DNA from: Deltaproteobacteria bacterium
GTDB lineage: Bacteria; Desulfobacterota; Binatia; Binatales; Binataceae
Direction of reading: 5' to 3'
Length of the DNA: 37,504 nucleotides
Assembly (NCBI GenBank): GCA_021780225.1
Contig: JAJXZF010000031.1
Coordinates: 1-37,504 of the forward strand
In this document: one piece after another, positions 16,792 through 32,964 of the stretch
Numbering within the stretch: the first letter of the stretch is position 1
Layout: every line of letters starts with the position of its first letter
Notes under the pieces: generated by a model
Databases searched by the model: none
The model's input: the letters and a program-made list of their open reading frames with translations, nothing else
Told to the model about the DNA's origin: nothing
Position numbers and translations under genes: made by a program

Positions 16792-16808
16792 CGTTGGCGG
16801 ATTTGATT

Positions 16809-16834: not shown

Positions 16835-16930
16835 ATGAAGGCGCCGCGTCAAGCGGCGCGGCCGGCGGGCAAGCCAATTGCTGGCAAAAACATAGCGCCG
16901 GGCACAAGCTTGAACTGGAGGAAAATCGCC

Positions 16931-17164
16931 ATGTCGTCGGAACGATGGATTCGGTTGATCGCGGGAACGTTTATCATGCTGACCGTCGCGCTGAGCTACT
17001 TCCAGAGCCGTTACTGGTTGTGGTTCACGCTGTTCGTCGGCGCGAACCTGTTTCAATCGGCGCTGACGCGCTGGTGCCTGATGGAGGACATCTTGCGCAA
17101 GCTCGGCGTGACCCGGCCGGCGGCTGGGCCGGGCGCGGCGGGAACCGCGTGCGCGAAATCGTGA
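16931..17164 (+). CDS. YgaP-like small inner-membrane protein (DUF2892)
   Basis: A 77-residue protein with two hydrophobic segments (about residues 7-25 and 28-45). The pattern RWIRLIAGTFIMLTVALSY then FTLFVGANLFQSALTRWC and a short cytoplasmic tail is that of the DUF2892 domain, which in E. coli YgaP is attached to a rhodanese. Here the membrane part is a separate gene and the rhodanese sits on the divergent regulator. The ATG at 16931 follows GGAGG at 16917-16921, so the longer upstream frame is rejected. The stop overlaps the ribosome-binding site of the next gene, indicating an operon. Confidence 0.88.
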   Translation: MSSERWIRLIAGTFIMLTVALSYFQSRYWLWFTLFVGANLFQSALTRWCLMEDILRKLGVTRPAAGPGAAGTACAKS

Positions 17165-17175
17165 GGAATGCGGCG

Positions 17176-18537
17176 ATGAGGCCGCGGCTCGCGCCGGTCG
17201 TGCTGGCGGCGGCGATCGCGTGGACGGCGGGCGCCGCGCACGCCGCCGCGCTCCGCCGCATTCCGCTCGCGCAGGCGCTAACGATCGCGCTGCGGCGGAA
17301 TCGCGGGCTGGCCGCGGCGCGCTTCGATCGCGCGGCCGCCGACGCCGAGACGGACGTCGCGCGCGGCGCGATGATTCCGCATCTGGACGCGGGCGAGAAC
17401 TATTCGGCGACCGACAATCCCGTGCAGGTCTTCTCGGATCTGCTGCTGCAGCAGGATTTCGCCGCGAGCGATTTCGCGCTCAACTCGCTGAACCATCCGG
17501 GCTTCTTCTCCAATTTTCAAAGCGACGTGACGCTGTCGTTCCCGGTTTTCGCGGGCGGACGCCTGCTGGCGGCGTGGCGGGCTGCCGGCTTGAACGCCGA
17601 AGCCGCGCGCTGGCAGGAAACCGAGGCGCGGCAACGGGTCGAGTTCGACGTAATCCGCGCCTATTACGCCGCCGTATTGGCCGAACGGAGGGTGGGCGTG
17701 GTGGATCGCGCGCTGGCCGCCGCGCGCGCCCATCTGGCGGTCGCGCAGGACCGGTATCATCACGGACTTGCCGTGAATTCCGACGTGCTGCGGGCGGAAG
17801 TCGCGGCGGGCGCGCTCGATCAGCAGCGTATCGAGGCGGCGAGCGGAGTGGCGATCGCGCGCGACGAATTCGGCCACGTGCTCGGCGCCGAGGATCAGGG
17901 ATTCGCGCCGCTTGAAAATCCGGACGAACTCGCCGCGGCGGCCGGCGTCGCGGGACCGCTCGACGCGCTGATTGCGCGAGCCGCCGCGGCGCGGCCCGAA
18001 CTGCATGCGGCGGAGATCAGAATCGCCGCGGCGCGCCAGCGGATTACGATCGCGCGATCCGACTATATGCCGACGATAACGGTGGCCAGCGTTTACGAGA
18101 ACGATTCGAAAACGCTGATGCGCGCGGGCAACAACGCGGGCGTATTCGTCAATGCGCGGCTGAATTTGTTCAATGGCCTGGCTTCGCGGGCGCGCGTGGA
18201 TGCGGCCGCGGCGCGGCTTGATCGGATCGAGGTTCTGGCGCGCGACCTGAACGAGGCGGTGCGCCTGCAGGTCTCGACCGCGTGGCGAAGGCTTGAAGCG
18301 GCGCGGGAAGGGCTCGACGTGGCGCGGCGCGACGTCGGTTACGCGAGCGACGCATTGCGAATCCTGGATGATCGCTACGGCGCCGGGTTGACGGCAAACG
18401 TCGCCGTGCTGGACGCCGAAACGGCGCGCGAGCAGGCCGAGATGCGGCTGGTCGGTTCAGAAATCAACGTGGCCGTCGATCGCGCCGCGGTCAACCTCGC
18501 CACGGGCTCCGATCCGAACGACTTGAAGGAACCCTGA
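17176..18537 (+). CDS. TolC-family outer-membrane efflux channel
   Basis: The 453-residue protein has a signal peptide (residues 1-23, ending AAHA) and the two-fold repeated OEP layout: long helical stretches rich in Ala/Glu/Arg separated by beta segments. The first repeat contains SDVTLSFPVFAGGRL and the second NLFNGLASRARVDAA, both at the usual membrane-strand positions. It forms the exit duct of the RND pump encoded downstream. The ATG at 17176 has GAGGA 8 bases upstream, partly inside the previous stop. It abuts the adaptor gene directly, so the operon is tight. Confidence 0.93.
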   Translation: MRPRLAPVVLAAAIAWTAGAAHAAALRRIPLAQALTIALRRNRGLAAARFDRAAADAETDVARGAMIPHLDAGENYSATDNPVQVFSDLLLQQDFAASDFALNSLNHPGFFSNFQSDVTLSFPVFAGGRLLAAWRAAGLNAEAARWQETEARQRVEFDVIRAYYAAVLAERRVGVVDRALAAARAHLAVAQDRYHHGLAVNSDVLRAEVAAGALDQQRIEAASGVAIARDEFGHVLGAEDQGFAPLENPDELAAAAGVAGPLDALIARAAAARPELHAAEIRIAAARQRITIARSDYMPTITVASVYENDSKTLMRAGNNAGVFVNARLNLFNGLASRARVDAAAARLDRIEVLARDLNEAVRLQVSTAWRRLEAAREGLDVARRDVGYASDALRILDDRYGAGLTANVAVLDAETAREQAEMRLVGSEINVAVDRAAVNLATGSDPNDLKEP

Positions 18538-19662
18538 ATGACGCCTGAATCGAATCGATTGGCCGGGCTGTCGCGCGCCCGGATCGCGGCAATCGCGCTG
18601 GCCGGGCTGGCAATTTTGTGGCTGGGCGCGCATTGGCTGGAGAGCGGCCGAATCGCGCCCGGCCTGATCGCGGCCGGATCCGAGGCGGTTGCAAAAGCGC
18701 CCTTGGGAGAAGCGCTTCGTGAAACCGTGCCGATTCGCCATGAAGTAATCGGATCGGTTCAATCGCGATTTCCGGTAGCCGCCGCCAGCCGGGTGGCGGC
18801 GCGCGTCGTCACGGTCGAAGTTCACGCCGGCGAACGCGTGCGCGCGGGCCAGACGCTGGTCACCCTGGATTCCGCCGATTTGCGCGCCGCGACCGCCCAA
18901 GCCGAAGGCGAATTGGCCGCCGCGAACGGCGAATTGGCGCGCGCGCACGCCGACGAGTCCCGCTACGCCGCCCTTTACCCGCGCGGCTCCGTGACCGCGA
19001 GCGAGCGCGACGCGGCCGAAGCCGCATATCGCGCCGCCGCCGGCCGCGCCGAACAGGCGCGCGCCGCGGTTGCGCAAGCGCGCGCATCGTTGGCGTATGC
19101 GACGGTCAAATCTCCCGCCGACGGCGTCGTAATCGAGCGGCTGGTCGAGCGCGGCGACCTTGCGATGCCGGGTCAGCCTCTGGTGCGGCTCTACAGCGAA
19201 TCCGCGATGCGCGCCGAATTGGAAGTCCCTGAGGCGCTGGCCCGCCAGATTCGCATCGGCCAGCCGATTGCCGTTTCAGTCGCCGCCGCGGGCGCAAGCT
19301 TCGATATCAGCGTGACCGAAATTGTGCCGGCCGCGGATCCGCATAGCCGCACGTTTCTGGTGCGCGCAGTTTTGCCCGCCGGCGCCAATCTGCGGCCCGG
19401 AATGTTCGCTCGCGCGACGTTCACATCCGGGACCGAAACCGTCGTGACCGTTCCGACAGACGCGGTTGTCCGGGTCGGGCAACTGACATCGGTTCGCGTT
19501 TACAACCGCGGCGCCACCGTCGTGCGGATGGTTTCGGTCGGAAGGCAATTTGGCGATCGGGTCGAAATTCTCGCGGGCGTCAATCACGGCGAACAGGTGC
19601 TGCCCGCTCGCGCTCGATCGCAGGCAATCGCAGGACAAACCGGAGATGATCGCGCGAATTAG
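18538..19662 (+). CDS. RND efflux periplasmic adaptor (membrane-fusion protein)
   Basis: The 374-residue adaptor links the RND permease to the outer-membrane channel. One membrane anchor lies at residues 15-31. A split lipoyl domain (VEVHAGERVRAGQTLVTLD and later VKSPADGVVIERLVERGDLA) encloses an alpha-helical hairpin rich in Ala and Glu (about 115-185). The beta-barrel domain, including NLRPGMFARATF, and the membrane-proximal domain follow. The ATG directly follows the stop of the channel gene (TGA then ATG). No lipobox cysteine is seen, so anchoring is by the N-terminal helix. The substrate cannot be predicted. Confidence 0.93.
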   Translation: MTPESNRLAGLSRARIAAIALAGLAILWLGAHWLESGRIAPGLIAAGSEAVAKAPLGEALRETVPIRHEVIGSVQSRFPVAAASRVAARVVTVEVHAGERVRAGQTLVTLDSADLRAATAQAEGELAAANGELARAHADESRYAALYPRGSVTASERDAAEAAYRAAAGRAEQARAAVAQARASLAYATVKSPADGVVIERLVERGDLAMPGQPLVRLYSESAMRAELEVPEALARQIRIGQPIAVSVAAAGASFDISVTEIVPAADPHSRTFLVRAVLPAGANLRPGMFARATFTSGTETVVTVPTDAVVRVGQLTSVRVYNRGATVVRMVSVGRQFGDRVEILAGVNHGEQVLPARARSQAIAGQTGDDRAN

Positions 19663-19718
19663 CGCCACTTTACCGCGGCGAATAGTTCATTTCCGGCCTG
19701 CCGCGCACGAATCGTAAT

Positions 19719-22700
19719 ATGAACGGCGAATCGCATCCAAAACTGGGCTTCACCGCGCGAATCGTCGATCTCTTTTTGGGATCGAATCTCTCGATGTTGC
19801 TGTTGGCGGCATCGCTCGCCGCCGGCTTGACGGCGCTGATGGTCACGCCGCGCGAGGAGGATCCGCAAATCTCGGCGCCGACCGCGGACATTATCGTCTC
19901 GATGCCGGGCGCCAGCGCCGCCGAAGTCGAAAATATAGTCACCATCAATCTGGAAAAGCGCCTGTGGGAAATGGAGGGCGTCAAGCATGTCTACTCCGTC
20001 TCCAGACCGGGAACCGCGATGGTGACGGTGCGTTTCCGAGTCGGATACGACAACATCAAAAGCCTGGTTCAAATTTACAACAAGCTCGAATCCAATCGCG
20101 ACGCCGCGCCTCCCGGCGTCACCGGATGGATCGTCAAGCCGGTTTCCATCGACGACGTGCCGATTCTAACGGTGACGCTCTGGAGCGAACGTGAAAGCGA
20201 TGCGGCGTTGCGGCGGGTCGCCGACGAAATTTTGCATCTGATGCAGCAAGCTCCCGACACCGGGCGGTCGTTCGTCGTAGGCGGACGGCCGCGGCAGGTG
20301 CGCGTGCTGCTCGACGCCGGCCGGCTCGCCGGCCATGGTCTGGCGCCGCTTGAAGTCGCGCAGGCGCTGCGCGGCGCCGACGCCAATTTGCGGGCGGGAT
20401 CGTTCGCCAGCTCGGATCGCGAAATACTGCTCGACAGCGGCCCCTTCCTGCGCAATGCGAGCGAGGTCGCAAACCTGGTGGTCGCGGTTCGCGACGGCCA
20501 TCCGGTGTACATAAAAGATGTCGCCCGCGTAATCGATGGTCCGGCCGAACCGGTCGCGTACACCAGCGTCGGCTTTGGCCCGGCGCGCGATCTGATTCCG
20601 GACGAACCGGGACAGATACGAAACGCCGCAACCGGCGCGCCCGGGCGCTTTTATCCAGCCGTCACGATCGCTTTCGCCAAACGACGGGGATCGAACGCGG
20701 TCGCGGTGGCGGAAGAACTGATCGGGAAGGTGCAGGCGCTCAAAGGCGTCGCAATTCCGTCGGACGTCCACGCGCTCGTCACGCGCAACTACGGCGAAAC
20801 CGCCAACGAAAAAGTCAATGAACTGGTGCGCGAGCTTTTGATCGCGGTCGCCATTATCGTGGTGCTGCTGGCGTTTTCGCTCGGTCTGCGCGAAGCGCTG
20901 ATCGTGGCGATCGCCGTGCCGGTCACGCTCGCTGTCACGCTGGCGGGAAATCTGCTCGCGGGATACACCATTAATCGCGTCACGCTCTTCGCATTGATTC
21001 TTTCGCTCGGCCTGCTGGTGGACGATCCGATCGTCGACGTCGAGAATATCCATCGCCATTTCCGTCTCGGCAAATTGCCGCCGCGCGAAGCGACTTTGAC
21101 GGCCGTGGACGAAGTCCGTCCACCCACGATACTCGCGACTTTCACCGTAATCGCATCGTTCATTCCGATGCTGTTCGTCACCGGCATGATGGGTCCGTAT
21201 ATGCGGCCGATGCCGTTCAACGTGCCGCTCGCGATGCTCATGTCGCTTATCGTGGCGTTCACGATTACGCCGTGGGCGGCATATCATCTGCTGCGGCGCG
21301 ATCACGAAACGCGGCCGGCGGCGGAAGCGCTGGACGAAACAGCCGTAATCCGCCGCTGGTACGCGCGAATTCTGAAGCCGTTAATCGACAGCCCCCGCCG
21401 CGCGCGTATTTTTCTTATCGGAATGGTCGGAGCGCTAATCGGATCGGTATTGCTGGTCGTGTTCGGACTCGTGCCGGTCAAGATGCTTCCATTCGACAAC
21501 AAGAACGATCTGCAACTGGTCATCGATATGCCGGAAGGCGCGCCTTTGGAAGCGACCGACGCGACCGTGCGCGATTTCGGCCGGCTGCTCAGCCGCATTC
21601 CCGAGGTAACGAGTTTCGAATCCTATACCGGCGCGCCGTCGCCCTTCGATTTCAACGGAATGGTGCGGCACTACTACATGCGTCGAGAGCCGTATCAGGC
21701 CGATATCCGGATAAACCTCGCGCCGAAATCGAAACGCGAACAGTCCTCGCACGAAATCGCGCTCCGGATTCGGCCGCTGGTTGAGGCGATCGCGAAACGT
21801 GACGGAGCCAAGCTGGAGATTGTCGAGATGCCGCCCGGACCGCCCGTGCTCGAAACGGTGGTGGCCGAAATTTACGGTCCGCCCGCGGCGGAATACGGCC
21901 AGTTGATTGAATACGGAAAGACATTGCGCCGGGTGTTCGATCATACCGCCGGCATCGTCGATACGGACGATTTTTCGATCGCCGCTCAGCCGCGGCTGCA
22001 ATATGCGATCGATCGGGAAAAGGCCGCGATGCACGGTGTGACGACGGCCGAGGTCGCGCGAACGCTCGCCATGATGGTCGGAGGCGATCCCGCCGCGACC
22101 ATCCACTCTGATACCGAGCGCGATCCGCTGACGATCGAACTGCGGATGCCGTTGGCGGACCGTTCGCATCTGACCGCGCTCGAGGCCGTGCGGGTGCGCT
22201 CCGCCGACGGCGCTTTGATACCGATCGGCGAAATTGGCGAATTCCGCCGGACCGTCGCCGAACAACCGATCTATCGCAAAGACCTGCGCGAAGTTGCTAT
22301 GGTCACCGCTGACACCGCCGGCATAAGTCCGGTCAACGAGATTCTGTGGCTCGAAAGCCGCACCAAAAATATCGTTCCGAACAACTATCAAATTGTCTGG
22401 ACGGGCGAAGGCGAATGGAACATCACGGTCACGGTCTTTCGCGACCTGGGAATCGCGTTCGGCGCGGCGCTCTTCTTTATTTACGTTCTGCTGGTGGCGC
22501 AGACTGAATCGCTCGCGATGCCGCTGATCATCATGGCGGCGATTCCATTGACGATGATTGGCATCATGCCGGGCTTTTTTCTGCTCGATCTGATTACCAG
22601 CCGCTCGATCGCCGGCTATGCCGACCCGGTCTATTTCACCGCGACCGCGATGATCGGCATGATCGCCCTGGCCGGCATCGTCGTGCGCAATTCAATCATT

Positions 22701-22976
22701 CTGATCGATTTCATCCATCGCGAACTTGCCGCCGGCCGCCCGCTCGAGGAGGCGATCCTGTCCGCCGGCGCAACCCGCCTGCGCCCGATCGCGCTGACCG
22801 CCGGCGCCGCGATGCTTGGCTCGGCTGTGATCACGCTCGATCCGATCTTCTCGGGCCTCGCATGGTCGTTCATCTTCGGCATCTTTGCGTCAACCGCCTT
22901 CACGCTCGTGGTCGTGCCTTTGATCTATTTTCTGGTCTATCGCGAGAAAGCGCCGAAGGCTTCCGCGAAAACATAA
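19719..22976 (+). CDS. RND family efflux permease
   Basis: A proton-driven inner-membrane pump of 1085 residues, with two repeated halves of six helices each and two large periplasmic loops. The proton-relay aspartates appear in GLLVDDPIVDVENIHRH (TM4). In TM10, where AcrB has a lysine in AKNAILIVE, this protein has arginine in VVRNSIILID. The motif LVGIMLxR-like central region and the metal-binding residues of CusA-type pumps were not identified. The start ATG lies 56 bases after the adaptor gene. The gene completes the tripartite pump and ends 36 bases before the first selC repeat. A role in exporting sulfur- or thiol-related toxicants is suggested by the regulator, not by the pump sequence. 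Confidence 0.95.
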   Translation: MNGESHPKLGFTARIVDLFLGSNLSMLLLAASLAAGLTALMVTPREEDPQISAPTADIIVSMPGASAAEVENIVTINLEKRLWEMEGVKHVYSVSRPGTAMVTVRFRVGYDNIKSLVQIYNKLESNRDAAPPGVTGWIVKPVSIDDVPILTVTLWSERESDAALRRVADEILHLMQQAPDTGRSFVVGGRPRQVRVLLDAGRLAGHGLAPLEVAQALRGADANLRAGSFASSDREILLDSGPFLRNASEVANLVVAVRDGHPVYIKDVARVIDGPAEPVAYTSVGFGPARDLIPDEPGQIRNAATGAPGRFYPAVTIAFAKRRGSNAVAVAEELIGKVQALKGVAIPSDVHALVTRNYGETANEKVNELVRELLIAVAIIVVLLAFSLGLREALIVAIAVPVTLAVTLAGNLLAGYTINRVTLFALILSLGLLVDDPIVDVENIHRHFRLGKLPPREATLTAVDEVRPPTILATFTVIASFIPMLFVTGMMGPYMRPMPFNVPLAMLMSLIVAFTITPWAAYHLLRRDHETRPAAEALDETAVIRRWYARILKPLIDSPRRARIFLIGMVGALIGSVLLVVFGLVPVKMLPFDNKNDLQLVIDMPEGAPLEATDATVRDFGRLLSRIPEVTSFESYTGAPSPFDFNGMVRHYYMRREPYQADIRINLAPKSKREQSSHEIALRIRPLVEAIAKRDGAKLEIVEMPPGPPVLETVVAEIYGPPAAEYGQLIEYGKTLRRVFDHTAGIVDTDDFSIAAQPRLQYAIDREKAAMHGVTTAEVARTLAMMVGGDPAATIHSDTERDPLTIELRMPLADRSHLTALEAVRVRSADGALIPIGEIGEFRRTVAEQPIYRKDLREVAMVTADTAGISPVNEILWLESRTKNIVPNNYQIVWTGEGEWNITVTVFRDLGIAFGAALFFIYVLLVAQTESLAMPLIIMAAIPLTMIGIMPGFFLLDLITSRSIAGYADPVYFTATAMIGMIALAGIVVRNSIILIDFIHRELAAGRPLEEAILSAGATRLRPIALTAGAAMLGSAVITLDPIFSGLAWSFIFGIFASTAFTLVVVPLIYFLVYREKAPKASAKT

Positions 22977-23012
22977 CGATTCGCTCGATTCGGATTTTAG
23001 GATCGAACCCGC

Positions 23013-23288
23013 ACCGGGCCGCAACGCGGCTATCGAACCGCTCATTTGGCGAATCCGAAGTTGATGGCGGAGGGGGGAGGGAGTCGAACCCTCCGACGAC
23101 AGTATTAGCCGCCAAGCCGGTTTTGAAGACCGGTGGGGCCACCGGGCCCCTTCCTCCTCCAATCCACCGATTTGAAAACATTTTCTCCGTTTCGGAGTCT
23201 TCGCATCGATCTTTGATGCTACCGAAATGCGCCGGTGGCGGCGACTCCGATTCAGCCCCGTTCAATTTGGCCGATCGCCTTGATGCCC
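23013..23288. repeat. direct repeat copy A containing selC
   Basis: This 276-base segment recurs at 25874-26149 with no gaps and, by eye, 10 mismatches (about 96% identity). It contains the complete tRNA-Sec gene, about 52 bases on its 3' side and 128 bases on its 5' side. Five of the ten differences cluster at 23165-23181, just upstream of the tRNA. Flanking sequence is unrelated outside these borders. It sits between the RND gene and the accessory cargo. Confidence 0.95.
23065..23160 (-). tRNA. selC: tRNA-Sec (UCA anticodon), copy A
   Basis: The 96-base gene has the special architecture of selenocysteine tRNA and encodes its own CCA end. The anticodon loop reads CTTCAAA with UCA as the anticodon. 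There is an 8-bp acceptor stem, a 6-bp D stem (GGGGCC/GGCCCC) with CGGT loop, a long variable arm (GGCGGC/GTCGTC with two wobble pairs) and a T arm with TTCGACT loop. Acceptor pair 6 is an A-C mismatch. It charges serine for SelA-dependent conversion and reads UGA with SelB; neither gene is in the window. Confidence 0.96.
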
Positions 23289-23440
23289 TCCGTTTTGATG
23301 GCTTCCCGGCCTTGTGTCGCACGATTTACGCTCGCGCCGCCGCCTCTTCGCGCTTGCGTTGCACTACATACAATCCAGCCGGTCCGCTTCGTACGATTTC
23401 CAAGGGGCCGCCAAGTGGACCTAACCGTTTCAATCCTGGG

Positions 23441-23649
23441 TCAATTCCACTCCGCCCTTGGGCCGATGCCGAGATTCTCGAGGCGGATTCGGACCCCGCC
23501 CCAATCGCCGGTGAGTATGGTTTGCAAAGCCAACTCTGGAGTTGGTTCGTTGGCGTCGATTGCGTTAGAACTGGACGCACAGACAGCGCCATCAGAGCCA
23601 GCAACAGAATTGTGGCAGCCAATTCCGGATGGCTTGGATTTCCCCGCAT
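23441..23649 (-). pseudogene. remnant of an OprB-like porin (broken N-terminus)
   Basis: Reading leftwards, one frame from 23649 begins with a plausible signal peptide (LAATILLLALMALSVRPVLT). A different frame, at about 23512-23462, encodes LTGDWGGVRIRLENLGIG, which strongly resembles the N-terminal signature of carbohydrate-selective OprB porins. The two pieces are in different frames and no porin body follows, so this looks like a frameshifted and truncated relic. It lies between selC copy A and the M20 gene. The similarity is read by eye; an HMM search would settle it. Confidence 0.5.
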
Positions 23650-23724
23650 AAGTATCGCCCGCTTTGCCGGCTTTCATCGGCGCTATGGAATTCAGCTCTG
23701 AACCGTGGATCGGAGAATCATCAA

Positions 23725-24996
23725 ATGAGTGCCGAAAAGGTCCATTCCGGCAGTCGCATCGAGGCCGCTAGTGTCAATGACCTCCTTCCGGACCTGGAAA
23801 AATTCTATGCCGATTTGCACGCACACCCTGAACTCTCCATGCAGGAGACACGAACCGCCCGGTTGGCGGCGGACCGGCTTCGTGCCGCCGGCTACGACGT
23901 AACCGCGGGAGTCGGCAAGACCGGCATCGTTGGCCTGTTACGCAACGGCGACGGTCCCGTGGTGATGCTGCGCGCCGATATGGATGCCTTACCGGTCAAG
24001 GAGGCGACCGGCCTCCCCTACGCGAGCTCGGTCATGGCCACCGACGCTACGGGCAAAATCGTGCCGGTGGCGCATGCCTGTGGTCATGACTTGCACGTGG
24101 TTTGGCTGGCGGGCGCCAGCGCTCTGCTGGCGAAACACAGGGAGATGTGGCGGGGAACACTAATAGTGGTCTTCCAACCCGGAGAAGAGACGGCGCAGGG
24201 CGCTCAGGCGATGATAGATGACGGCCTCTTCACTCGCTTTCCAAAGCCTCACGTTGTGATGGGTCAACATGTCATGGCTGAACCGGCCGGCACGCTCAGC
24301 ACCCGGGCCGGCGTTATTACCTCGGCCGCCGACAGCCTGCAAATCCGCATGTTCGGCCGCGGCGCGCACGGCTCCATGCCTCAGGCTAGCATCGATCCGG
24401 TCGTTATGGCGGCCGCTACGGTTCTGCGCCTGCAAACTATCGTTTCCCGCGAGGTCGCGGCAACTGACGCGGCGGTGGTAACGGTTGGTTCGCTCCAGGC
24501 TGGCGATAGGGCGAATGTCATTCCCGACGAGGCAACTATCAAGTTGAACGTGCGTTCCTACGATGAAGGCGTCCGCCGACACGTACTCGCCGCGATTGAA
24601 CGAATTGTCAAGGCGGAAGCGGCGGCGGCGGGAGCCGTCAAGGCTCCGGAAATTATGCCGCTTGACCGCTATTCCCTGGTGAAGAACGATCCGGACGCGA
24701 CCAAGCGGGTGGTCAGTGCATTTTGCCGGCAATTTTCTGAGGACCGTGTGCGCGAAACCAAACCGGCCACAGCGAGCGAAGATTTCGGTTGCTTCGGAGT
24801 GGAGTGGCATGTCCCCTCGGTTTTTTGGTTTGTTGGCGGTACTGACGCCGGCGCCTACAAGCAAGCCGAGCAGGCCGGGCGGCTCAGCGATATACCAACA
24901 AACCATAGTCCGCACTTCGCTCCGACGATCCATCCCACACTGGAGACGGGCGTGACCGCATTCGTGATCGCGTCGCTCGCGTGGCTTGCGCCATAG
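23725..24996 (+). CDS. M20 family amidohydrolase / metallopeptidase (hippurate-hydrolase-like)
   Basis: The 423-residue protein is a di-metal M20D amidohydrolase. Metal ligands are in HACGHD (117-122), the catalytic glutamate pair is EE at 154-155 in QPGEETAQGA, and the RADMDALPV motif (83-91) is typical. The dimerisation domain contains GRGAHGSMPQ. Family members cleave N-acyl amino acids, peptides or hippurate-like conjugates. The ATG at 23725 follows GGAG 9 bases upstream; a longer frame starts at 23629 but adds an unrelated segment. It lies between the two selC repeats and uses a somewhat less GC-biased codon set than the neighbouring core genes, so it was probably acquired. Confidence 0.9.
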   Translation: MSAEKVHSGSRIEAASVNDLLPDLEKFYADLHAHPELSMQETRTARLAADRLRAAGYDVTAGVGKTGIVGLLRNGDGPVVMLRADMDALPVKEATGLPYASSVMATDATGKIVPVAHACGHDLHVVWLAGASALLAKHREMWRGTLIVVFQPGEETAQGAQAMIDDGLFTRFPKPHVVMGQHVMAEPAGTLSTRAGVITSAADSLQIRMFGRGAHGSMPQASIDPVVMAAATVLRLQTIVSREVAATDAAVVTVGSLQAGDRANVIPDEATIKLNVRSYDEGVRRHVLAAIERIVKAEAAAAGAVKAPEIMPLDRYSLVKNDPDATKRVVSAFCRQFSEDRVRETKPATASEDFGCFGVEWHVPSVFWFVGGTDAGAYKQAEQAGRLSDIPTNHSPHFAPTIHPTLETGVTAFVIASLAWLAP

Positions 24997-25169
24997 ATTA
25001 AGTACTCGTGTCTTATTTGCGGCGCGGATAGAGCCTTCCGCGGTATACGGAAGGAGAAAACCGGAGAAAGACGGCAGTTGGTTGTGCGAGGCGGGAACAT
25101 CGGGAATTCAATATTTTCCCGCGATTCTCCAACTCTCGCCCTCGCAACACTTTACCGAGAGGGTCCGCG

Positions 25170-25820
25170 ATGCATGTGCTCTTGCTGGTGCTCGATCTCG
25201 TTGGCACGTTCGTCTTTGCGATCAGCGGCGCGGCGGTTGGAGTGCAGGGCGGATTGGACCTTTTCGGCGTCATGGTGCTGGCATTCGCGGCAGGCAATGC
25301 GGGAGGCATCACCCGCGACCTGCTGATCGGCGCCACGCCGCCGGCCGCGATCGCCGACTGGCGTTATCTCGGCGTCTCCGTGCTGGCCGGCTTAATAACA
25401 TTTTTCTGGTATCCGCTCATCGATCGGATGCGCAGCCCCGTGCTGGTATTCGACGCGGCAGGTCTGGCGCTCTTCGCTGTGACCGGCACGCAAAAGGCGC
25501 TGGTCTGCCGGCTCAATCCGGTGATGGCTGCGCTGCTCGGGATGCTGACCGGAATCGGCGGCGGCATGACGCGCGACGTGCTCGCGATGCAGATTCCCAC
25601 CGTTCTGCGGGAAGATATATACGCGGTCGCGGCGCTCGTTGCAGCAGCCATAGTTGCCGTGGGTTACGTACTGCATCTGCCACCCGCCCCCATGATATTG
25701 GCGGGTGCGGCAGCCTGCTTCGCACTTCGCCTGATGGCGATGCTGCGTGGCTGGCATCTCCCGGTCGCCCGCTCCGCGCAAAGGCATGCACCGGCGAAAG
25801 CCGTGAGGAACGAAGAATAA
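25170..25820 (+). CDS. TRIC-type (UPF0126/YicG) cation channel protein
   Basis: The 216-residue protein has seven predicted membrane helices arranged as two similar halves, each containing the glycine-rich kink motif followed by Arg-Asp: GNAGGITRDLL near residue 45 and GIGGGMTRDVL near residue 130. This duplication is the hallmark of the UPF0126/TRIC family of small cation channels, which also includes glycine-related transporters. The ATG at 25170 has GAGAGGG 6 bases upstream. It lies 173 bases after the M20 gene and 53 bases before selC copy B, within the segment between the repeats. Confidence 0.9.
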   Translation: MHVLLLVLDLVGTFVFAISGAAVGVQGGLDLFGVMVLAFAAGNAGGITRDLLIGATPPAAIADWRYLGVSVLAGLITFFWYPLIDRMRSPVLVFDAAGLALFAVTGTQKALVCRLNPVMAALLGMLTGIGGGMTRDVLAMQIPTVLREDIYAVAALVAAAIVAVGYVLHLPPAPMILAGAAACFALRLMAMLRGWHLPVARSAQRHAPAKAVRNEE

Positions 25821-25873
25821 AAGCGCCGAGCGCATTGCCATGAATGCGGTCGTGTCGGGTTATTGAGACCGCG

Positions 25874-26149
25874 ACCGGGCCGCAACGCGGCTATCGAACC
25901 GCTCATTTGGCGAATCCGAAGTTGATGGCGGAGGGGGGAGGGAGTCGAACCCTCCGACGACAATATTAGCCGCCAAGCCAGTTTTGAAGACCGGTGGGGC
26001 CACCGGGCCCCTTCCTCCTCCAATCTACTGATTTGAAAGCGCTTTCTCCGTTTCGGAGTCTTCGCATCGATCTTCGATGCTACCGAAATGCGCCCGTGGC
26101 GGCGACTCCGATTCGGCCCCGTTCAATTTGGCCGATCGCCTTGATGCCC
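25874..26149. repeat. direct repeat copy B containing selC
   Basis: Second copy of the 276-base repeat, offset by exactly 2861 bases from copy A, in the same orientation. The border after GATGCCC passes directly into different sequence that soon holds a transposase remnant. The ten mismatches with copy A show the repeats have diverged, which argues against an assembly artefact. Confidence 0.95.
25926..26021 (-). tRNA. selC: tRNA-Sec (UCA anticodon), copy B
   Basis: This copy differs from copy A at two positions inside the tRNA. One (25980) changes a G-C to a G-U wobble in the anticodon stem; the other (25963) lies in the variable-arm loop. The anticodon, the D arm, the T arm, the acceptor A-C mismatch and the encoded CCA are unchanged, so it should be as foldable as copy A. 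The conserved 128 bases upstream presumably carry the same promoter. Confidence 0.95.
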
Positions 26150-26171
26150 GATGATGGCGTTCCATACTGTG

Positions 26172-26322
26172 CACAGTGATTCCATGTTTTGCGAGCGGCT
26201 CGACTACGACCTGATGTTCCGCTGGTTTCTGGATCCGGAGATGGACGAGCCGGGCTTCGACCATTCCAGTTTTTAACGCAACCGCGCCCGGCTTCTGGAG
26301 CACGCGGCGGTCGAGCGGGCAC
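26172..26322 (+). pseudogene. remnant of an IS5-type transposase
   Basis: From the ATG at 26184 one frame reads CERLDYDLMFRWFLD and then DEPGFDHSSF, which matches the N-terminal DDE-transposase pattern (EQLDYNLLFRWF ... DHSTFSKNRxRLL) of IS5-type elements. A TAA at 26274-26276 interrupts the frame, after which RNRARLLEH continues the family pattern for a few residues before similarity is lost. No catalytic DDE residues or terminal repeats remain. It is an inactive fragment next to selC copy B. Family assignment within IS5 is by eye. Confidence 0.65.
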
Positions 26323-27072
26323 GAGCGCGGCGGCGCGGCCGGCGGGCGAATCGGCTTCCCGCGAGCGCGGCGACATCGGCGCAGAACACCGGCATTCGGC
26401 CCCCGGAATAAATCCCGCCCGGAGCAAAACGGCGATCGCGAATGCGACGCTCAGCTACCCGCCGTCACGTCTTCGCGGCGCTTCACCCGTCACGTCGATA
26501 ACATCCCTCGCCGCGCATCAGGCTGCACCACTCTCCAATCCGGCGGTTCTTCGCGTCCGCGCCTGGCCGAGGCGGATTTTCAGGCTTCAGCGCGCTGGCC
26601 GCGCCGTTGTGCAGCTTCATCGCGAAGTGCTATGGTCCGCTTCCACAAATTTATTTTATCTCGGGATCGCGCGCCAACTGGGATTTTCTGTAGAGTGCAT
26701 ACAAGCGGACGAGGGGCAAAGCCGACACGACCCGCGGTCGAAAACAAGGTTCAGTGGAAACAGCCGAGGTTCTGAATGCGTTTGGCGGTTGTGGCGGCGA
26801 TGCAACATCCAAGTCCCACATCCGGCGACGCTCAGGGAGCGATCGACGCGGAATCCGGGCGCTCATGGCTATGTTTGGACCAATTTGCCGTTGATAGACA
26901 GCAACGGTCTCATTTCGTTTCCATCCCAGCACCGGCCTTGCTTTCGACCTATATGAATAAGGTTCGATGCAACAGCCTAATGAATTCTTTGAGCGCCGCG
27001 CGTTGCCGCTCAGAGGGTGAACGAAAGGGCCTCATTTCCAACCCGGGTGTATAGCGGCAGAGCGATCATTTC
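26323..27072. other. 750-base region with no convincing gene
   Basis: Open frames here lack any family resemblance and the composition shifts from GC-rich to more mixed. One possible sigma-70 promoter is TTGTGC (26607-26612), an 18-base spacer and TATGGT (26631-26636) with an upstream TG; its target is unclear, since the next gene starts 436 bases later. The region is probably decayed mobile or genic DNA between the transposase remnant and the acyltransferase. Confidence 0.35.
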
Positions 27073-28224
27073 ATGCGGCGCATTGAAGAACTTGACGGCC
27101 TGCGCGGAGCGGCTTGCTTGTCCGTTTTGGTGGCGCATTATTTTGGAGAAGTCGCGCATGGCTATCGCCAGCTTGCGCTCGGATGGCTGGGTGTGGACGT
27201 CTTTTTTTGCTTGTCCGGATTTTTGATAGGAGGCATCCTGCTCGACAATAGAGACAGCGGCTCCTATTTCAAGACTTTCTACATACGGCGGGCGTTTCGG
27301 ATATTTCCAATTTATTACGTGACCATCATCTCGTTGTTCGTCTTCCTGGCCCGCTTCGGATGGATTGCCAAATATACGCAAGTCAGCTCGCCGATCTGGT
27401 ATCTCACGTATTCGCAGAACGTGCTGTTCGCCGTTACGAACAACCCCGGCGGCGTGTGGCTTCAGCCAACCTGGACATTATGCGTGGAAGAGCAGTTTTA
27501 CCTCGTGCTTCCATTGATATTATATTTCTGTCCCCGGCGATTCACGTTTCCAGCATTAATTGGATTAATTGCGAGCGCGTCGATTTTTCGCGCCGGATTG
27601 GCGATCGCCGGCGCCGGCGAAACCTCCATCCTCGTCTTGCTCCCCGCGCGGTGGGACCTTTTATTTACCGGCGTACTCGGCGCGTACATATATCGCAGCG
27701 AATATCTATGGACGTTCTTTACGGCCGGGGAAAATAGAAACCTGAAACTGTGCACCGTGCCAAGCATATTGTTGATTCCTGTCCTGGCGTGCCTTGACGA
27801 ATATTTGAAGTTGAAGGTGTTCCTGCTTTTCGGGAACATATTCATAGGCATCGCTTTCACGGGCTACATTTTGCTTGTTGTCAGCGGCGCGCCCGAAGGC
27901 GCACGCCTTCGGGTATCCGTATTGAAATTTTTTGGGGCCATTTCTTACGGACTTTATCTTATTCATCAGCCCATCGCGGGGATCATGCACGCGGCAATTC
28001 TCCACGGCCATCCGGACATCGCGACGCCAGCGCAATTCGCGGTCACCGTGAGCGCGGCGGGAATCTCAATTCTGACAGCTTATCTCTCGTGGACGTATTT
28101 TGAACGCCCGTTGGTCGCGATCGGACGCCGCTGGACCTATACGGCCACGGCGCCGCCGCGGCCTCTTGCTGAAAGTTATGAATCGAGCGAAGGCGCGAAG
28201 AAGACGGCACACACTTCCTCATAG
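27073..28224 (+). CDS. acyltransferase-3 family membrane protein (OafA/YrhL-like)
   Basis: The 383-residue protein has about ten membrane helices. It carries the family motifs: RIEELDGLRGAACL followed by His22, GVDVFFCLSGFLIGG, the arginine motif FYIRRAFRIFPIYY, TWTLCVEEQFYL, and SYGLYLIHQP near the end. Members O-acetylate or otherwise acylate LPS, capsule or other glycans at the inner membrane. Codon use is visibly less GC-biased than in the core genes, and the gene lies beside decayed mobile DNA, so horizontal acquisition is likely. The ATG at 27073 begins at the conserved motif; the ribosome-binding site is weak. Confidence 0.92.
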   Translation: MRRIEELDGLRGAACLSVLVAHYFGEVAHGYRQLALGWLGVDVFFCLSGFLIGGILLDNRDSGSYFKTFYIRRAFRIFPIYYVTIISLFVFLARFGWIAKYTQVSSPIWYLTYSQNVLFAVTNNPGGVWLQPTWTLCVEEQFYLVLPLILYFCPRRFTFPALIGLIASASIFRAGLAIAGAGETSILVLLPARWDLLFTGVLGAYIYRSEYLWTFFTAGENRNLKLCTVPSILLIPVLACLDEYLKLKVFLLFGNIFIGIAFTGYILLVVSGAPEGARLRVSVLKFFGAISYGLYLIHQPIAGIMHAAILHGHPDIATPAQFAVTVSAAGISILTAYLSWTYFERPLVAIGRRWTYTATAPPRPLAESYESSEGAKKTAHTSS

Positions 28225-28399
28225 CCGGCCCGAATCAGGCGGGAGGCGGAGCCGAGGGAGTCGCCGCCGAAGCTGATGACCGCGAGCGGGCGGGATCGGA
28301 GGGAAGGGGGACGGTCCGGCCGATTCGCCCGATTGCCGAGGGCGGGCCGTTCGTGGCATTAGAACCATACCCAAGGCCGACCGCACATTTATAAGACCC

Positions 28400-29572
28400 A
28401 TGAGCACAGCAAACCAATCGACCGCCGAACCCAAACGCCGCATCCAATTCGCCTTCACCGACGAACAGGAGCAATTCCGCTCGGCCCTGCGACGCTTTCT
28501 CAACGACCGCTCGCCGACCACCGAGGTGCGCCGCCTGATGGCCACCGAAACCGGCTACGACCCCGCCGTATGGCGCCAGTTGAGCGAGGAGCTGGCCCTG
28601 CCCGGCATCCACGTGCCCGAGCAATACGGCGGCGCGGGTTTCGGGATGGTCGAGTTGGGAATCGTGATGGAAGAGCTGGGCCGCGCCCTGCTCTGCGCGC
28701 CCTATTTTTCGACCGCCGTGCTGGCCGCCAACGCGATTCTGAACGCCGGTTCGGAGGCGCAAAAGGCGGCTCTGCTGCCTGACCTTGCGAGCGGCGCGCG
28801 GCTGGCGGCGCTGGCGGTCACCGAGCCGGACGGCGACTGGAATCCGGCCGCGGTCGCGGCCGTCGCCACGCCCGCCGGGGACGGCTACCGGCTCGACGGG
28901 GTGAAGAGCTACGTCGTGGACGGCCATATCGCGGACCTGCTGATCGTCGCGGCGCGCGCGCCGAAAACCTCGGGCCTCGAGGGGTTGGCGCTGTTCACGC
29001 TGGCGGCGGACGCAAGCGGCGTCAAAAGGCGCCAGTTGGCGGCGATGGACCCGACCCGGAAGATTGCGCAAATCGAATTTTCGGGCGCACACGCGAGCCT
29101 GCTTGGAAATCTCAATGACGGCGTAAAGGCGATTCAGCGCACTTTGGACCAGGCCGCGATCGCGCTCGCCAGCGAGATGGCCGGCGGCGCCCAGACGATG
29201 CTCGATTCAGCCGTAAATTACGCCAAGATGCGCGTGCAGTTCGGACGGACAATCGGCTCGTTTCAGGCGATCAAGCACAAGCTGGCCGACCTGCTGCTCG
29301 AAGTGGAGCTGGCCAAGTCCGCCGCCTATTACGCCGCGCAGGCCGCCGCCGCGAACGATCCGGAATGGCCCGCGCTGGCCAGTCTGGCCAAGGCCGCGAC
29401 CTCCGAGACCTATCTGCACGCCGCGGCCGAATGTATACAGATTCATGGCGGAATCGGCTTTACCTGGGACAACGACACCCATCTTTGGTTCAAGCGCGCC
29501 AAAAGCTCGGAAACGTTCTTGGGCCAGCCGAGCTATCACCGCGAACTCCTGATGCAGCGTTGGGGAGTCTGA
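28400..29572 (+). CDS. acyl-CoA dehydrogenase, small (FadE27/29-like) subunit type
   Basis: A 390-residue flavoprotein of the acyl-CoA dehydrogenase fold: N-terminal helical domain (FTDEQEQFRSALRRFL), a middle beta domain with AVTEPDGDW, and a C-terminal helical domain with RVQFGRTIGSFQAIKHKLAD and QIHGGIGFTWDND. It oxidises an acyl-CoA to the 2-enoyl-CoA. The partner at 29576, 3 bases downstream, is a second and different dehydrogenase. Such unequal adjacent pairs form alpha2-beta2 heterotetramers in actinobacterial steroid degradation, so the two are likely one enzyme. The ATG at 28400 has no strong ribosome-binding site. Confidence 0.93.
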   Translation: MSTANQSTAEPKRRIQFAFTDEQEQFRSALRRFLNDRSPTTEVRRLMATETGYDPAVWRQLSEELALPGIHVPEQYGGAGFGMVELGIVMEELGRALLCAPYFSTAVLAANAILNAGSEAQKAALLPDLASGARLAALAVTEPDGDWNPAAVAAVATPAGDGYRLDGVKSYVVDGHIADLLIVAARAPKTSGLEGLALFTLAADASGVKRRQLAAMDPTRKIAQIEFSGAHASLLGNLNDGVKAIQRTLDQAAIALASEMAGGAQTMLDSAVNYAKMRVQFGRTIGSFQAIKHKLADLLLEVELAKSAAYYAAQAAAANDPEWPALASLAKAATSETYLHAAAECIQIHGGIGFTWDNDTHLWFKRAKSSETFLGQPSYHRELLMQRWGV

Positions 29573-29575
29573 ACG

Positions 29576-30820
29576 ATGAGCACCATGAACGAAACTGAAG
29601 TCCGCGCCGAGGTGCGCGAATGGCTGGCGGCCAACTGGGACCCCGACCTGCCGCTGGCGGAATGGCGCGGCAAGCTCGCCGATTCCGGATGGGGCATGCC
29701 GCAATGGCCCAAGGAATGGTACGGACGAGGATTGCCGGTGGGTCTGGCGCGGGTGGTCGAAGAGGAACTCGCCGCGATCGGCGCGGTGGGCGTGGCCCGA
29801 TCGGGCGTGCGGCTGCTGGCGGCCGCGACCATCCTGGAACACGGCAGCGACGTGCACAAAAAGCGGTATCTGCGCCGGATTCTCACCGGCGAGGACACCT
29901 GGTGCCAGTTCTTCAGCGAGCCGGGCAGCGGCTCCGATCTGGCCGGCGCGACGACCAAGGCCGAGTTGAAGGGCGATTTCTGGATCGTCAACGGCCAGAA
30001 GGTATGGACGACGAGCGCGCATCACGCGGACCATGGGTTGCTGCTCGCGCGCACCGATTGGGACGCGCCCAAGCATGAGGGGATGTCGTTTTTCATCATC
30101 GACGTCAAACAGCCCGGCGTCGATGTGCAGCCGCTGCGGCAGATGAACGGGCACGCCTCGTTCAACCAGGTCTTCTTCACCGACGCGAAAGTGCCGAAGG
30201 AAAATCTGGTGGCGCGGGTCGGCGACGGCTGGAAGGTGGCGATGACCACGCTTGCGCACGAGCGCCGCGGCGCCGACGGATTGCCGCCGCCGTCGAAGCG
30301 CGGAACGCGGATCGGAAAGATTCACGCCGAGGAGCGGGAGGAGACCGAAAAGGCGAATCAGCCTTACAAATGGTATCCGCAGCGGGCCGGCCGCGTCGAT
30401 TTGATTATCGAGCGCGCCAAGGAGACCGGCGCGAACAAAGATCCGGTGGCGCGTCAGGAAATCGCGAAATTGATGACGCTGGCGAAGTCCGCCGAATGGA
30501 CCGCCCGCCGGGCGCGGGCCGCGCAGCGGCAGGGACGTCCGCAAGGCCCCGAAGGTTCGCTCGGCAAACTCGCGGCCAGCCATGTCGCGCGCGCCTGTGC
30601 GCGGGTGCATACGCTGATGACCGGCGCGGCCGCGATGCTGACGGGAGCGGAAAGTCCGCGCGACGGCATTATCGCTGAAATACTCGTATCGGTGCCCGCC
30701 GTCTCGATCGCGGGCGGCACCGATGAAATTCAGCGCAACATTATCGCGGAGCGCGTGCTCGAACTGCCCAAGGAGCCGCGGTTCGACACCGGACCGTTCC
30801 GCAACGTGCGCCGCAACTAA
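29576..30820 (+). CDS. acyl-CoA dehydrogenase, large (FadE26/28-like) subunit type
   Basis: The 414-residue protein has the same fold as its neighbour. The central flavin region is intact: TWCQFFSEPGSGSDLAGA and VNGQKVWTTSAHHADHG. The C-terminal helical domain ends SIAGGTDEIQRNIIAERVL. An extra charged segment (about residues 240-285, including KANQPYKWYPQRAGRVDL) lies before the C-terminal domain; as I recall a similar segment occurs in related dehydrogenases. The ATG is preceded by GGGGAG within the end of the first gene, and the genes are separated by 3 bases, so they are co-translated. It likely pairs with the preceding subunit. Confidence 0.93.
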   Translation: MSTMNETEVRAEVREWLAANWDPDLPLAEWRGKLADSGWGMPQWPKEWYGRGLPVGLARVVEEELAAIGAVGVARSGVRLLAAATILEHGSDVHKKRYLRRILTGEDTWCQFFSEPGSGSDLAGATTKAELKGDFWIVNGQKVWTTSAHHADHGLLLARTDWDAPKHEGMSFFIIDVKQPGVDVQPLRQMNGHASFNQVFFTDAKVPKENLVARVGDGWKVAMTTLAHERRGADGLPPPSKRGTRIGKIHAEEREETEKANQPYKWYPQRAGRVDLIIERAKETGANKDPVARQEIAKLMTLAKSAEWTARRARAAQRQGRPQGPEGSLGKLAASHVARACARVHTLMTGAAAMLTGAESPRDGIIAEILVSVPAVSIAGGTDEIQRNIIAERVLELPKEPRFDTGPFRNVRRN

Positions 30821-30853
30821 CGGCCCCGGCGGAAACGATTCGCCCGGCTGAAA

Positions 30854-30879
30854 GCGCCGCGTCACGATTGGCGCGGCGC
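30854..30879. terminator. possible hairpin terminator after the dehydrogenase pair
   Basis: GCGCCGCG (30854-30861) pairs perfectly with CGCGGCGC (30872-30879) across a 10-base loop, 34 bases after the dehydrogenase stop. There is no T-run after it, so an intrinsic terminator is only a possibility. Confidence 0.35.
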
Positions 30880-30902
30880 AATCGCCGGAGCCAGTGCCGC
30901 GC

Positions 30903-31108
30903 TAGTGTGGCGTCCCGCAAATAAGTTCCATCTGACGCCTGATCAGCTCGGCGCGCAGGCCGCCCACCGCCGGGCGGCCAGAGATGGATTGCCGGGTCTG
31001 GGCCCGGCAATGACTAACCGAGATGGTCATGCCCGGACTTGATCCGGGCATCCACGCCGAGCGCAAGATCGACGCGGAGTGCAAACTTGTTCAGGGGACG
31101 CCATACTA
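30903..31108. mobile_element. MITE-like element, copy 1
   Basis: A 206-base element with imperfect terminal inverted repeats of about 25 bases, starting TAGTGTGGCGTCCC at the left and ending in the complement of TAGTATGGCGTCCC. Both ends finish in TA, as expected for insertion by IS630/Tc1-mariner type transposases. The interior has two hairpins, around TTGCCGGGTCTGGGCCCGGCAA and ATGCCCGGACTTGATCCGGGCAT, and no coding capacity. A second copy of identical length is at 34809-35014, roughly 85% identical. Its right end supplies the stop codon of the minus-strand flavin oxidoreductase gene. Confidence 0.85.
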
Positions 31109-32155
31109 GACGAAGCGCGGCAGAATCTGCTCGCCGAGCATCCGCATGTCGCGAAGCTGGCGATCGAGGGGGCCGATGAACGGCCCGATCCAGAGCTTGT
31201 CGGCGCCCGCCGCGGCAACCTCTTCGATCCGCGCGATCCAATCGCCGGGATTGCCGGCGATCGCGAAACGCCGGATCGCGTAGTCGGTCAACCCCAACTC
31301 TTCCATCCGGCGGGTATTGCGGCCGCTTTGCATCACGTGATCGTATAATTCGTAGCCGTCGACGTATTCCTGAACGCGGGCGCGAAAGTCGTTGGGCACG
31401 TTCTTACCGTCGAGACTGAAACGCATCGCATGGTTGAGAATCGACGAGACGGAGCCTTTGACGTTCTCGATCGCCTTCTCGCGATCCTCGTGCAGCGACG
31501 TGCGGGCGGTGAACCAGACCTCGACGGCGGCGGGGTCGCGATTCGCCTCGCGCGCGCCGGCCTGAACCCGCGCCTTGGTATCGCGGATAATCTCGGCGGA
31601 GAGGCCGGTTCCCGCGATCACGCCGTCGCCGATTTTGCCGCCCAGATGGAGCATTCGCGGCCCTTCGGCGCAAAGGTAGATCGGTATGCGCGAGCGCACC
31701 GCCTCGCGCGACCATCGCACGCGCTGGGGCCTGCCCTGATAGGCCGCTTCGCCGCTGGCGAGCAAGTCGCGCACGCAGGCCACGTAGTCGGCGATTCGCG
31801 CGCGCGTGGCGATTTTGTAGCCGATATTGAGCACGGCGCTGTCGCCGCTGGCGATTTCCATGAAGGCGCGGCCGTTGGTCAGACTGTCGATCGAAGCGAG
31901 GAACGAGGCCATCACCTGCGGCTCGCGCGTCAGCGGATTGGTCGGACGCAAACCGACCATCGCCCGCTCCGCCGCCATCGCCATCATGGTCGTGCGCAGG
32001 CAGGCGTCGCCGCCGACGAAGGCCGAGTCGTACGTGCCGAGCGCCTGCACGCCGTAGTCTTCGGCCATTTTCACCAAGTCCGCAAAACCGGCCGCCTCGT
32101 CGCGCCGCAGCAGCGGTCCGCCGGGGGCCACCAGGAATCCGAAGGCGACTTTCAT
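31106..32155 (-). CDS. luciferase-like (LLM class) flavin-dependent oxidoreductase
   Basis: The 349-residue protein belongs to the bacterial luciferase-like superfamily, which uses FMN or F420 bound in a TIM barrel. Typical segments are VKMAEDYGVQALGTYDSAFVG near the N-terminus, LTREPQVMASFLASIDSLTNGRAFMEIASGD in the core and YLCAEGPRMLHLGGKIGDGVI. Whether it uses F420 or FMN cannot be told; no other F420 genes are in view. The ATG is 43 bases after the SDR gene, so it is third in a minus-strand operon. The TAG stop coincides with the terminal CTA of MITE copy 1, but the C-terminus looks complete. Confidence 0.9.
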   Translation of the reverse strand: MKVAFGFLVAPGGPLLRRDEAAGFADLVKMAEDYGVQALGTYDSAFVGGDACLRTTMMAMAAERAMVGLRPTNPLTREPQVMASFLASIDSLTNGRAFMEIASGDSAVLNIGYKIATRARIADYVACVRDLLASGEAAYQGRPQRVRWSREAVRSRIPIYLCAEGPRMLHLGGKIGDGVIAGTGLSAEIIRDTKARVQAGAREANRDPAAVEVWFTARTSLHEDREKAIENVKGSVSSILNHAMRFSLDGKNVPNDFRARVQEYVDGYELYDHVMQSGRNTRRMEELGLTDYAIRRFAIAGNPGDWIARIEEVAAAGADKLWIGPFIGPLDRQLRDMRMLGEQILPRFV

Positions 32156-32198
32156 TTCGATCGTTCCGCCGACTCGTCAAAGAGCCGAAGACAGGCGG

Positions 32199-32951
32199 TT
32201 ATACGGCGGTATAGCCGCCGTCAACCACGTATTCGGCGCCAGTTACAAAAGAAGCCTCGTCGGTCGCGAGGAACAGCACCACGTAACCGACTTCTTCCGG
32301 ACGGGCGGCGCGTTTCATCGGCGCCAGCGCCGCGATCGCCTCGAGTTCCTTTTCCGCAAAGATATCGACCATCGGGGTTTTGATTACGCCCGGATGGACG
32401 GAATTGACGCGAATATTGTCGGCAGCGTATTCGACCGCGGCGGTTTTGGTCAGCAGCCGGACGGCGCCCTTGCTGGCGTGATAGGCGGCCGAACCGCCCG
32501 AACCGATTAACCCATAAATCGAGGAGATATTGACGATCGAGCCGCCGCCGCGCTTTTTCATCGCGGGAGCCGCGAACTTGGTCCCCAACCATACGCCCTT
32601 CTGATTCACGTTGATGATGGCGTCCCATTCCTCTTCGTTGGTGTCGCTGACGCCTTTGACATTCAGGATGCCGGCGTTGTTCACGAGGATGTCGAGGCCG
32701 CCGAATTCGCGCTCGCAGGCGTCGACGGCGGCGCGCCAATCGCCTGCGCGGGTGACGTCGAGATGGACAGGCAGGGCGACTTTGGTCCCGGCTTTTTTAT
32801 TTACTTCGTCCGCGAGTTGCCGGGCTTCGGCGTCCAGCACGTCGGCGACGACGACGCGCGCGCCTTCGTTGACGAAGAGGCGGGTTTCGGCCGCGCCCTG
32901 TCCGCGCGCGCCGCCGGAAATCAATGCGACTTTTCCTTTGAGACGATCCAC
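32199..32951 (-). CDS. short-chain dehydrogenase/reductase (classical SDR)
   Basis: An NAD(P)-dependent oxidoreductase of 250 residues from the chosen start. The cofactor loop GGARGQG is at 13-19, NNAG at 91-94, and the catalytic Ser144, Tyr157 and Lys161 (YHASK) are in place. The LDVT motif near residue 64 and the NSVHPGVIKTPM segment near 190 are typical. The acidic residue after the second strand (VVADVLD) suggests NAD rather than NADP. A GTG at 32951 is selected because a strong GGAGGAG lies 6 bases upstream; an upstream GTG at 32996 would add 15 residues. It lies 47 bases after the BVMO gene. Confidence 0.93.
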   Translation of the reverse strand: MDRLKGKVALISGGARGQGAAETRLFVNEGARVVVADVLDAEARQLADEVNKKAGTKVALPVHLDVTRAGDWRAAVDACEREFGGLDILVNNAGILNVKGVSDTNEEEWDAIINVNQKGVWLGTKFAAPAMKKRGGGSIVNISSIYGLIGSGGSAAYHASKGAVRLLTKTAAVEYAADNIRVNSVHPGVIKTPMVDIFAEKELEAIAALAPMKRAARPEEVGYVVLFLATDEASFVTGAEYVVDGGYTAV

Positions 32952-32957
32952 TGGTTG

Positions 32958-32964
32958 CTCCTCC
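32958..32964 (-). promoter_or_regulatory. ribosome-binding site deciding the SDR start
   Basis: On the minus strand GGAGGAG, a near-perfect Shine-Dalgarno sequence, is separated from the GTG at 32951 by 6 bases. It makes the 250-residue form of the SDR much more likely than the longer frame beginning at 32996. Confidence 0.8.

Follow-up and report, generated by a model that had tools for sequence, protein, structure and literature searches.

Two complete selC genes in direct repeats flank a two-gene segment in a Binataceae genome

The selC pair and the DNA between its copies

Selenocysteine tRNA (tRNA-Sec), the product of selC, is usually encoded by a single gene. The stretch of DNA analyzed here, contig JAJXZF010000031.1 of assembly GCA_021780225.1 (hereafter the window; 37,504 nucleotides, nt), is one whole contig of a 118-contig draft genome (G000) from the family Binataceae, and it carries two such genes. 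ARAGORN calls a tRNA-Sec(TCA) twice on the minus strand, at 23065-23160 (copy 1) and 25926-26021 (copy 2), and both calls pass the Rfam RF01852 model, with 72.0 and 68.7 bits respectively against a cut-off of 47 bits. As can be read from the sequence, both genes have a TCA anticodon, a cloverleaf, a long variable arm and G73 followed by CCA, and in copy 2 one G-C pair of the anticodon stem has become G-U. The same cloverleaf is predicted for the two RNAs (-51.8 and -49.6 kcal/mol, z-scores of -3.4 and -3.0), and none of 200 shuffles of either folds as well. Both copies may be expressed; the promoter and terminator scans of 22900-26400 returned no more than shuffles give.

Each gene sits within a 276-nt direct repeat, at 23013-23288 for copy 1 and 25874-26149 for copy 2, with a start-to-start spacing of 2861 nt. 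Both repeats, read on the minus strand, consist of a 128-nt 5' flank, the whole gene and a 52-nt 3' flank. They differ at 10 positions, none of which is in the 3' flank, two in the tRNA (23102 and 23119 in copy 1) and eight in the 5' flank, so that an exact match of 89 nt (23013-23101) is the longest between them. In the 10-80 nt just beyond the repeats, identity falls to 20-40%. ARAGORN, Rfam, the repeat alignment and the predicted folds thus uphold an earlier note on this DNA, made from the letters alone, which had described two Sec-specific selC genes in collinear 276-bp direct repeats with 10 mismatches. Homologous recombination between the repeats could delete the 2.86-kb unit.

As for the segment between the repeats, it encodes two proteins on the plus strand. 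The first is an M20 family amidohydrolase/peptidase at 23725-24996 (PF01546, 3.6e-27; TIGR01891 over its cut-off), whose open reading frame (ORF) as listed begins at 23629 and for which we prefer the ATG at 23725 on homology. The second, at 25170-25820, is a TRIC-type or "glycine transporter" channel protein (PF03458, 2.4e-40). The earlier note had named both, together with a porin-like relic on the minus strand (approximately 23400-23728, by eye); the hydrolase and the channel hold, but the relic was not confirmed, with no match in Pfam, NCBIfam or a plasmid tblastn. These two genes are the ORFs examined between the repeats, and no integrase, replication or transfer gene is found among them.

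The M20-TRIC DNA is nearly missing from the six congeners compared (G001-G006), of which only G002 and G005 gave weak matches, 39-44 nt long, and the remaining four gave none. The two genes are adjacent in G033, a member of another genus, and in G035; the G033 DNA is 81% identical, as against 73% for selB. Similar pairs occur on Bradyrhizobium and Mesorhizobium plasmids (~69% DNA identity, with 58% and 49% of the query covered). Since the pairs in G033, G035 and the two rhizobial plasmids lie away from selC, we rejected the idea of a selC-specific load. By its distribution, the segment looks like a portable metabolic pair.

Flanks, neighbors and a third copy

The surroundings of each repeat bear on which copy is native. 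Convergent with selC, an RND efflux permease gene (19719-22976, plus strand; PF00873 and synteny) adjoins copy 1 and is missing at copy 2. G001 and G006 likewise have an RND permease gene 3' of selC; in G005, an island and a displaced 3' selC piece come between the two. The 3' side of copy 1 aligns unbroken to the selC-RND junction of G001. On the 5' side, the flank of copy 1 resembles that of a further selC on contig C70 of the same genome (a similarity reached by 1 in 1000 shuffles) and, weakly, that of G001 (23 in 1000), whereas the flank of copy 2 has no sharing with either (444 and 361 in 1000 respectively). Copy 1 and C70 have in common a 20-nt stretch, with one gap, at 23356-23375 (minus strand), the 15-nt core of which occurs at only two places, on C18 and C70, among 179 loci compared. 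The genes 5' of selC in G001 and G005 encode a beta-lactamase family protein and a PNPOx protein; the genome under study has a 70% match to the beta-lactamase-family gene on C109 and no match to the PNPOx gene. The outer flanks of copy 2 are unlike those of selC in G001, and we infer that copy 1 is the native gene and copy 2 the newcomer.

The selC on C70 is a third tRNA-Sec gene (C70:11401-11493), contained in a cassette (C70:11276-11548) that is 84% identical to the window repeat over 274 columns (BLAST), with limits within a few nt of those of the repeat. Its tRNA is probably decaying because it has lost 1 nt, has an altered acceptor stem and has a minimum free-energy structure that is not a cloverleaf (z-score -1.6), although it still passes Rfam with 56.9 bits. 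The C70 copy probably arose within this lineage, since its flanks are nearer to copies 1 and 2 (92/120 and 96/120 on the 5' side, 43/50 for both on the 3' side) than to G001 (78/119 and 31/47). C70 carries ~167 nt of G001-like 5' flank, compared with 128 nt of 5' flank in the window repeats, and the two sides of its selC match different G001 contigs, C32 and C25. An integrase relic in C70 was rejected, the best E value there being 0.036 in a tblastn search with three selC-linked integrases.

On its 5' side, copy 2 is adjoined by a truncated transposase relic at 26145-26273 (plus strand), DUF772-containing and IS1182/IS5-like, with 29.5 bits against a cut-off of 23.1 for PF05598 (7.8e-7) and a match to the IS1182 model NF033551 that is far under its cut-off (1.3e-4). 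As for a composite insertion-sequence layout, there is this one relic outside copy 2 and no second was recognized in the few pieces scanned beside copy 1. In another genus, a DUF772-like transposase lies ~160 nt upstream of selC (G039:C59, locus L100, 1568-1687), 47.5% identical over 40 residues to the copy 2 relic and in the same relative orientation. Farther right, an acyltransferase-3 gene (27073-28224, plus strand; PF01757, phrog_3333 O-acetyltransferase) separates copy 2 from a block of core genes. This right-hand block (28331-37504) aligns with contig C6 of G001 and the left-hand one (13542-23196) with contig C20, so that the DNA from selC to 28331 joins blocks that are on separate contigs in G001.

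selC across the genus, family and class

Among the six congeners, one full selC is present in G001 and in G003 to G006, accompanied by a partial piece in G004 and G005, and none was found in G002. The state that the earlier note proposed to look for in relatives, one selC and no cargo, therefore holds within the genus, with a single full gene in five of the six and only the weak 39-44-nt matches to the cargo. In the family as a whole, 36 of 41 genomes have a selC match (34 full-length, by reading rows), and truncated pieces, 13 in total, occur in 11 of the 41. Two pieces begin at tRNA position 33, where by the sequence the anticodon loop opens, four begin within 61-63, five stop within 39-43 and two have other limits (21-94 and 1-57); the break thus falls within or next to the anticodon loop, or close to the T arm, in 11 of the 13. 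The 5' pieces ending at 39-43 are in G009, G018, G036 and G037, and the 3' pieces from position 33 are in G005 and G030. By these counts, and by the integrase islands described next, selC in this family is a hot spot for integrases.

Integrases were found in 3 of 47 stretches (44 of which contain selC, whole or in part), always next to a full gene and each confirmed by PF00589, in a survey that consisted of one iterative profile search over ORFs and may miss divergent integrases. Two of the three, those of G005 and G030, sit in the classic arrangement of a full selC, a tyrosine integrase and a displaced 3' piece from position 33, which contrasts with the whole-gene pair of the window; the earlier view that integrase attachment repeats usually span only part of the tRNA fits these loci well. 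The G005 island (G005:C81, locus L039, 2381-10195) is ~7.6 kb long and includes a DUF3631 gene and the displaced 3' tRNA piece. In G015 (C101, locus L145, 8836-10164), the tyrosine integrase lies ~87 nt upstream, on the 5' side of selC, a position that fits elements replacing the 5' half of the gene. A degenerate second selC lies ~0.9 kb from the full copy in G018 (C155, locus L097, 6347-6435), with its middle and variable-arm portion unchanged. In the window, by contrast, no displaced partial tRNA fragment is present, both repeats comprising the whole gene with its 128- and 52-nt flanks, and the best integrase match in a tblastn with the same three selC-linked integrases has an E value of 0.30.

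Among 148 genomes of the class (116 with any match), and with scoring limited to six candidates in each, two or more full-length selC genes were found in only G000, G028 and G141. In G141 the two candidate genes are on different contigs. In G028 (C298, locus L095), two identical 96-nt genes (6544-6639 and 10728-10823) lie in direct orientation 4.2 kb apart; their outer flanks differ, genes for a phosphoribosyltransferase, a CapA-like protein and a WCX protein lie between them, and no integrase was found there. G028 also has two selB matches over the cut-off, ~34% alike in protein.

Origin and significance of the pair

The pair is best read as a real, uncommon duplication that arose by whole-unit copying of selC in the host lineage, and not as an integrase island. 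The explanation we favor, to which we give about an even chance, is that the unit was duplicated by illegitimate or transposase-linked recombination rather than by a tRNA-targeting integrase. The copies, their divergence, their flanks and the failure to find an integrase are direct observations, from which we infer an order of events and a route of recombination. The whole transcription unit, from the region upstream of selC to the short flank downstream of it, would have been copied more than once at a chromosomal breakpoint. Copy 1 would be the native gene beside its RND neighbor; copy 2 would be a later duplicate with unchanged orientation, separated from copy 1 by the M20 and TRIC genes and bordered on its far side by the broken transposase; and the C70 copy would be an older duplicate. 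Whole-unit duplication is favored because the repeats are whole, there is no break inside the tRNA and no integrase match in the window is better than the one given above. An origin in the host lineage is favored because the 3' flank and part of the 5' flank of copy 1 are native-like and neither flank of copy 2 is. Further points in favor are the third cassette on C70, with its poorly folding tRNA and with flanks nearer to the window copies than to G001, and the transposase relic beside copy 2. The breakpoint is suggested because the core blocks around the locus, like the two sides of selC on C70, match different G001 contigs. Between the two origins considered in the earlier note, the flank evidence better supports duplication in the host lineage, and an incoming island with a selC of its own is less supported. 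The note did not mention the third copy, the transposase relic or the hot spot across the family.

Several observations weigh against this reading. The RND neighbor is not general: the selC stretches examined in G003 and G004 lack it. The 5'-flank evidence for copy 1 as native is short and modest; under stricter scoring, its similarity to C70 is still reached by only 4 of 500 shuffles, but that to G001 by 205 of 500. Copy 2 and C70 possibly share a few tens of nt past the 3' end of the repeat (5-7 in 1000 shuffles at 20-45 nt, 1 in 1000 at 60 nt), which copy 1 lacks and which would complicate simple copying from copy 1 to copy 2. The C70 tRNA itself does not discriminate, with 88/95 identities to copy 1, 86/95 to copy 2 and 87/95 to G001. 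The transposase relic is evidence of proximity, not of action, and an integrase may plausibly have been present and lost, given that integrases use selC in this family. Finally, the six congeners are the closest relatives in the comparison.

It is also conceivable, if rather unlikely, that a circular DNA carrying the M20-TRIC pair and a complete selC underwent one crossover with the host selC, either homologous or catalyzed by an integrase acting at the anticodon loop. Such an event would leave two complete hybrid selC genes around the cargo, and the final structure is as expected from it; the hot-spot status of selC, with its breaks falling at the anticodon loop, also fits, and the near absence of M20-TRIC from the congeners, together with its high identity in G033, suggests horizontal movement. 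However, the ORFs examined between the repeats include none for integration, replication or transfer, the 5' flank of copy 1, which would have to be element DNA, looks partly native, and both an exact 24-nt pattern scan of viral contigs and a tRNA blastn against phage records came back empty. In tRNA-dependent lysogeny (PMC10865867), a mobile element may likewise bring its own full cognate tRNA gene, but the host tRNA gene is broken there by the integration, whereas both genes are intact here.

Improbable in our estimation is the successive arrival of two integrase elements of opposite polarity, one bringing a 3' half and the other a 5' half of selC and so restoring two full genes, followed by loss of both integrases. 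Displaced pieces of both polarities do occur in the family, as described above, and the G015 integrase lies on the 5' side of selC. Yet the match between the window repeats extends 128 nt upstream and 52 nt downstream of the gene, compared with the 43 nt shared by the 5' piece and the full copy in G037, no integrase relic was found in the window, and two insertions and two losses would be required. Genomic islands that insert at tRNA genes (Islander, PMC4383910), selC of E. coli among them (PMC6174562), use the same kind of site, as in G005 and G030. What they leave is one rebuilt gene with a displaced fragment, whereas the window has two whole genes, no fragment and no integrase found.

We regard as equally doubtful an assembly artefact in which real copies were wrongly joined, for example a circular or unlinked M20-TRIC segment linked through the 89-nt exact match. 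The genome is a fragmented draft, probably a metagenome-assembled genome, and a crossover in that stretch would turn a circle and a simple site into the observed structure. On the other hand, the ten mismatches make a copied artefact unlikely, and G028 likewise has a pair of full selC genes on a single contig, identical though they are there, with flanks that differ. Least likely by far is the spread of selC as a self-contained cassette, RNA-derived or otherwise. Copy 2 and C70 would then resemble 5'-truncated reverse transcripts: their 3' limits are close (at 52 nt beyond the tRNA for copy 2 and within a few nt of this for C70), and their 5' extents differ as noted above. However, copy 2 and C70 may share sequence past that limit, the 52-nt 3' flank folds no better than its shuffles (z-score -0.2) and no target-site duplication was seen by eye.

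More than one tRNA-Sec gene per genome has precedent. Table 3 of the Secmarker survey (PMC5330540) gives eight bacterial genomes with two, namely seven from Clostridia and one a Shigella record, all selected on compensatory changes in the stems, and the survey treats identical gene pairs as suspect when their flanks are identical too. The present genome resembles those in having more than one structurally sound gene; here, however, the flanks are duplicated as well, cargo lies in between and a decaying third copy is present. Among the titles and abstract openings surveyed, none described a pair of full selC genes flanking cargo.

If whole-unit copying in the host lineage did produce the pair, cargo between two selC copies is not by itself a sign of an integrase island. 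With two intact, slightly different copies and a decaying third, it becomes possible to ask which one serves UGA recoding, whether duplication buffers selC against integrases and how whole tRNA units get copied. A bolder conjecture, to which we attach only a small probability, is that the complete selC unit is in this family a repeatedly copied cassette that relocates whole, by some means distinct from the known integrases that split tRNA genes, and seeds rearrangement breakpoints. The three copies of G000 and the two identical full genes around 4 kb in G028 would then be snapshots of its relocation.

As regards the host, the genome encodes SelB (on C17; 370 bits against a cut-off of 242.25). 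A formate dehydrogenase alpha subunit scores over its cut-off but was rejected as a selenoprotein, having no in-frame stop (TGA) in any of the seven genomes of the genus; it was the only selenoprotein candidate searched, and none was identified. We take the family to belong to Candidatus Binatota, all sequences of which an older classifier placed in unclassified Deltaproteobacteria (PMC8262859), and 42 of 48 Binatales genomes in that study are from soil.

Two other repetitive elements appear in the window. A 116-nt stretch at 26324-26439 is 81% identical to part of contig C103 (locus L007) of the same genome and is possibly another dispersed element. A dispersed repeat of ~100-210 nt is present at 30903-31109 and 34805-35014, with one copy on C70 (5094-5300); dozens of copies, ~87-92% identical over ~100 nt, occur in this genome, the only one to show it among the matches listed.

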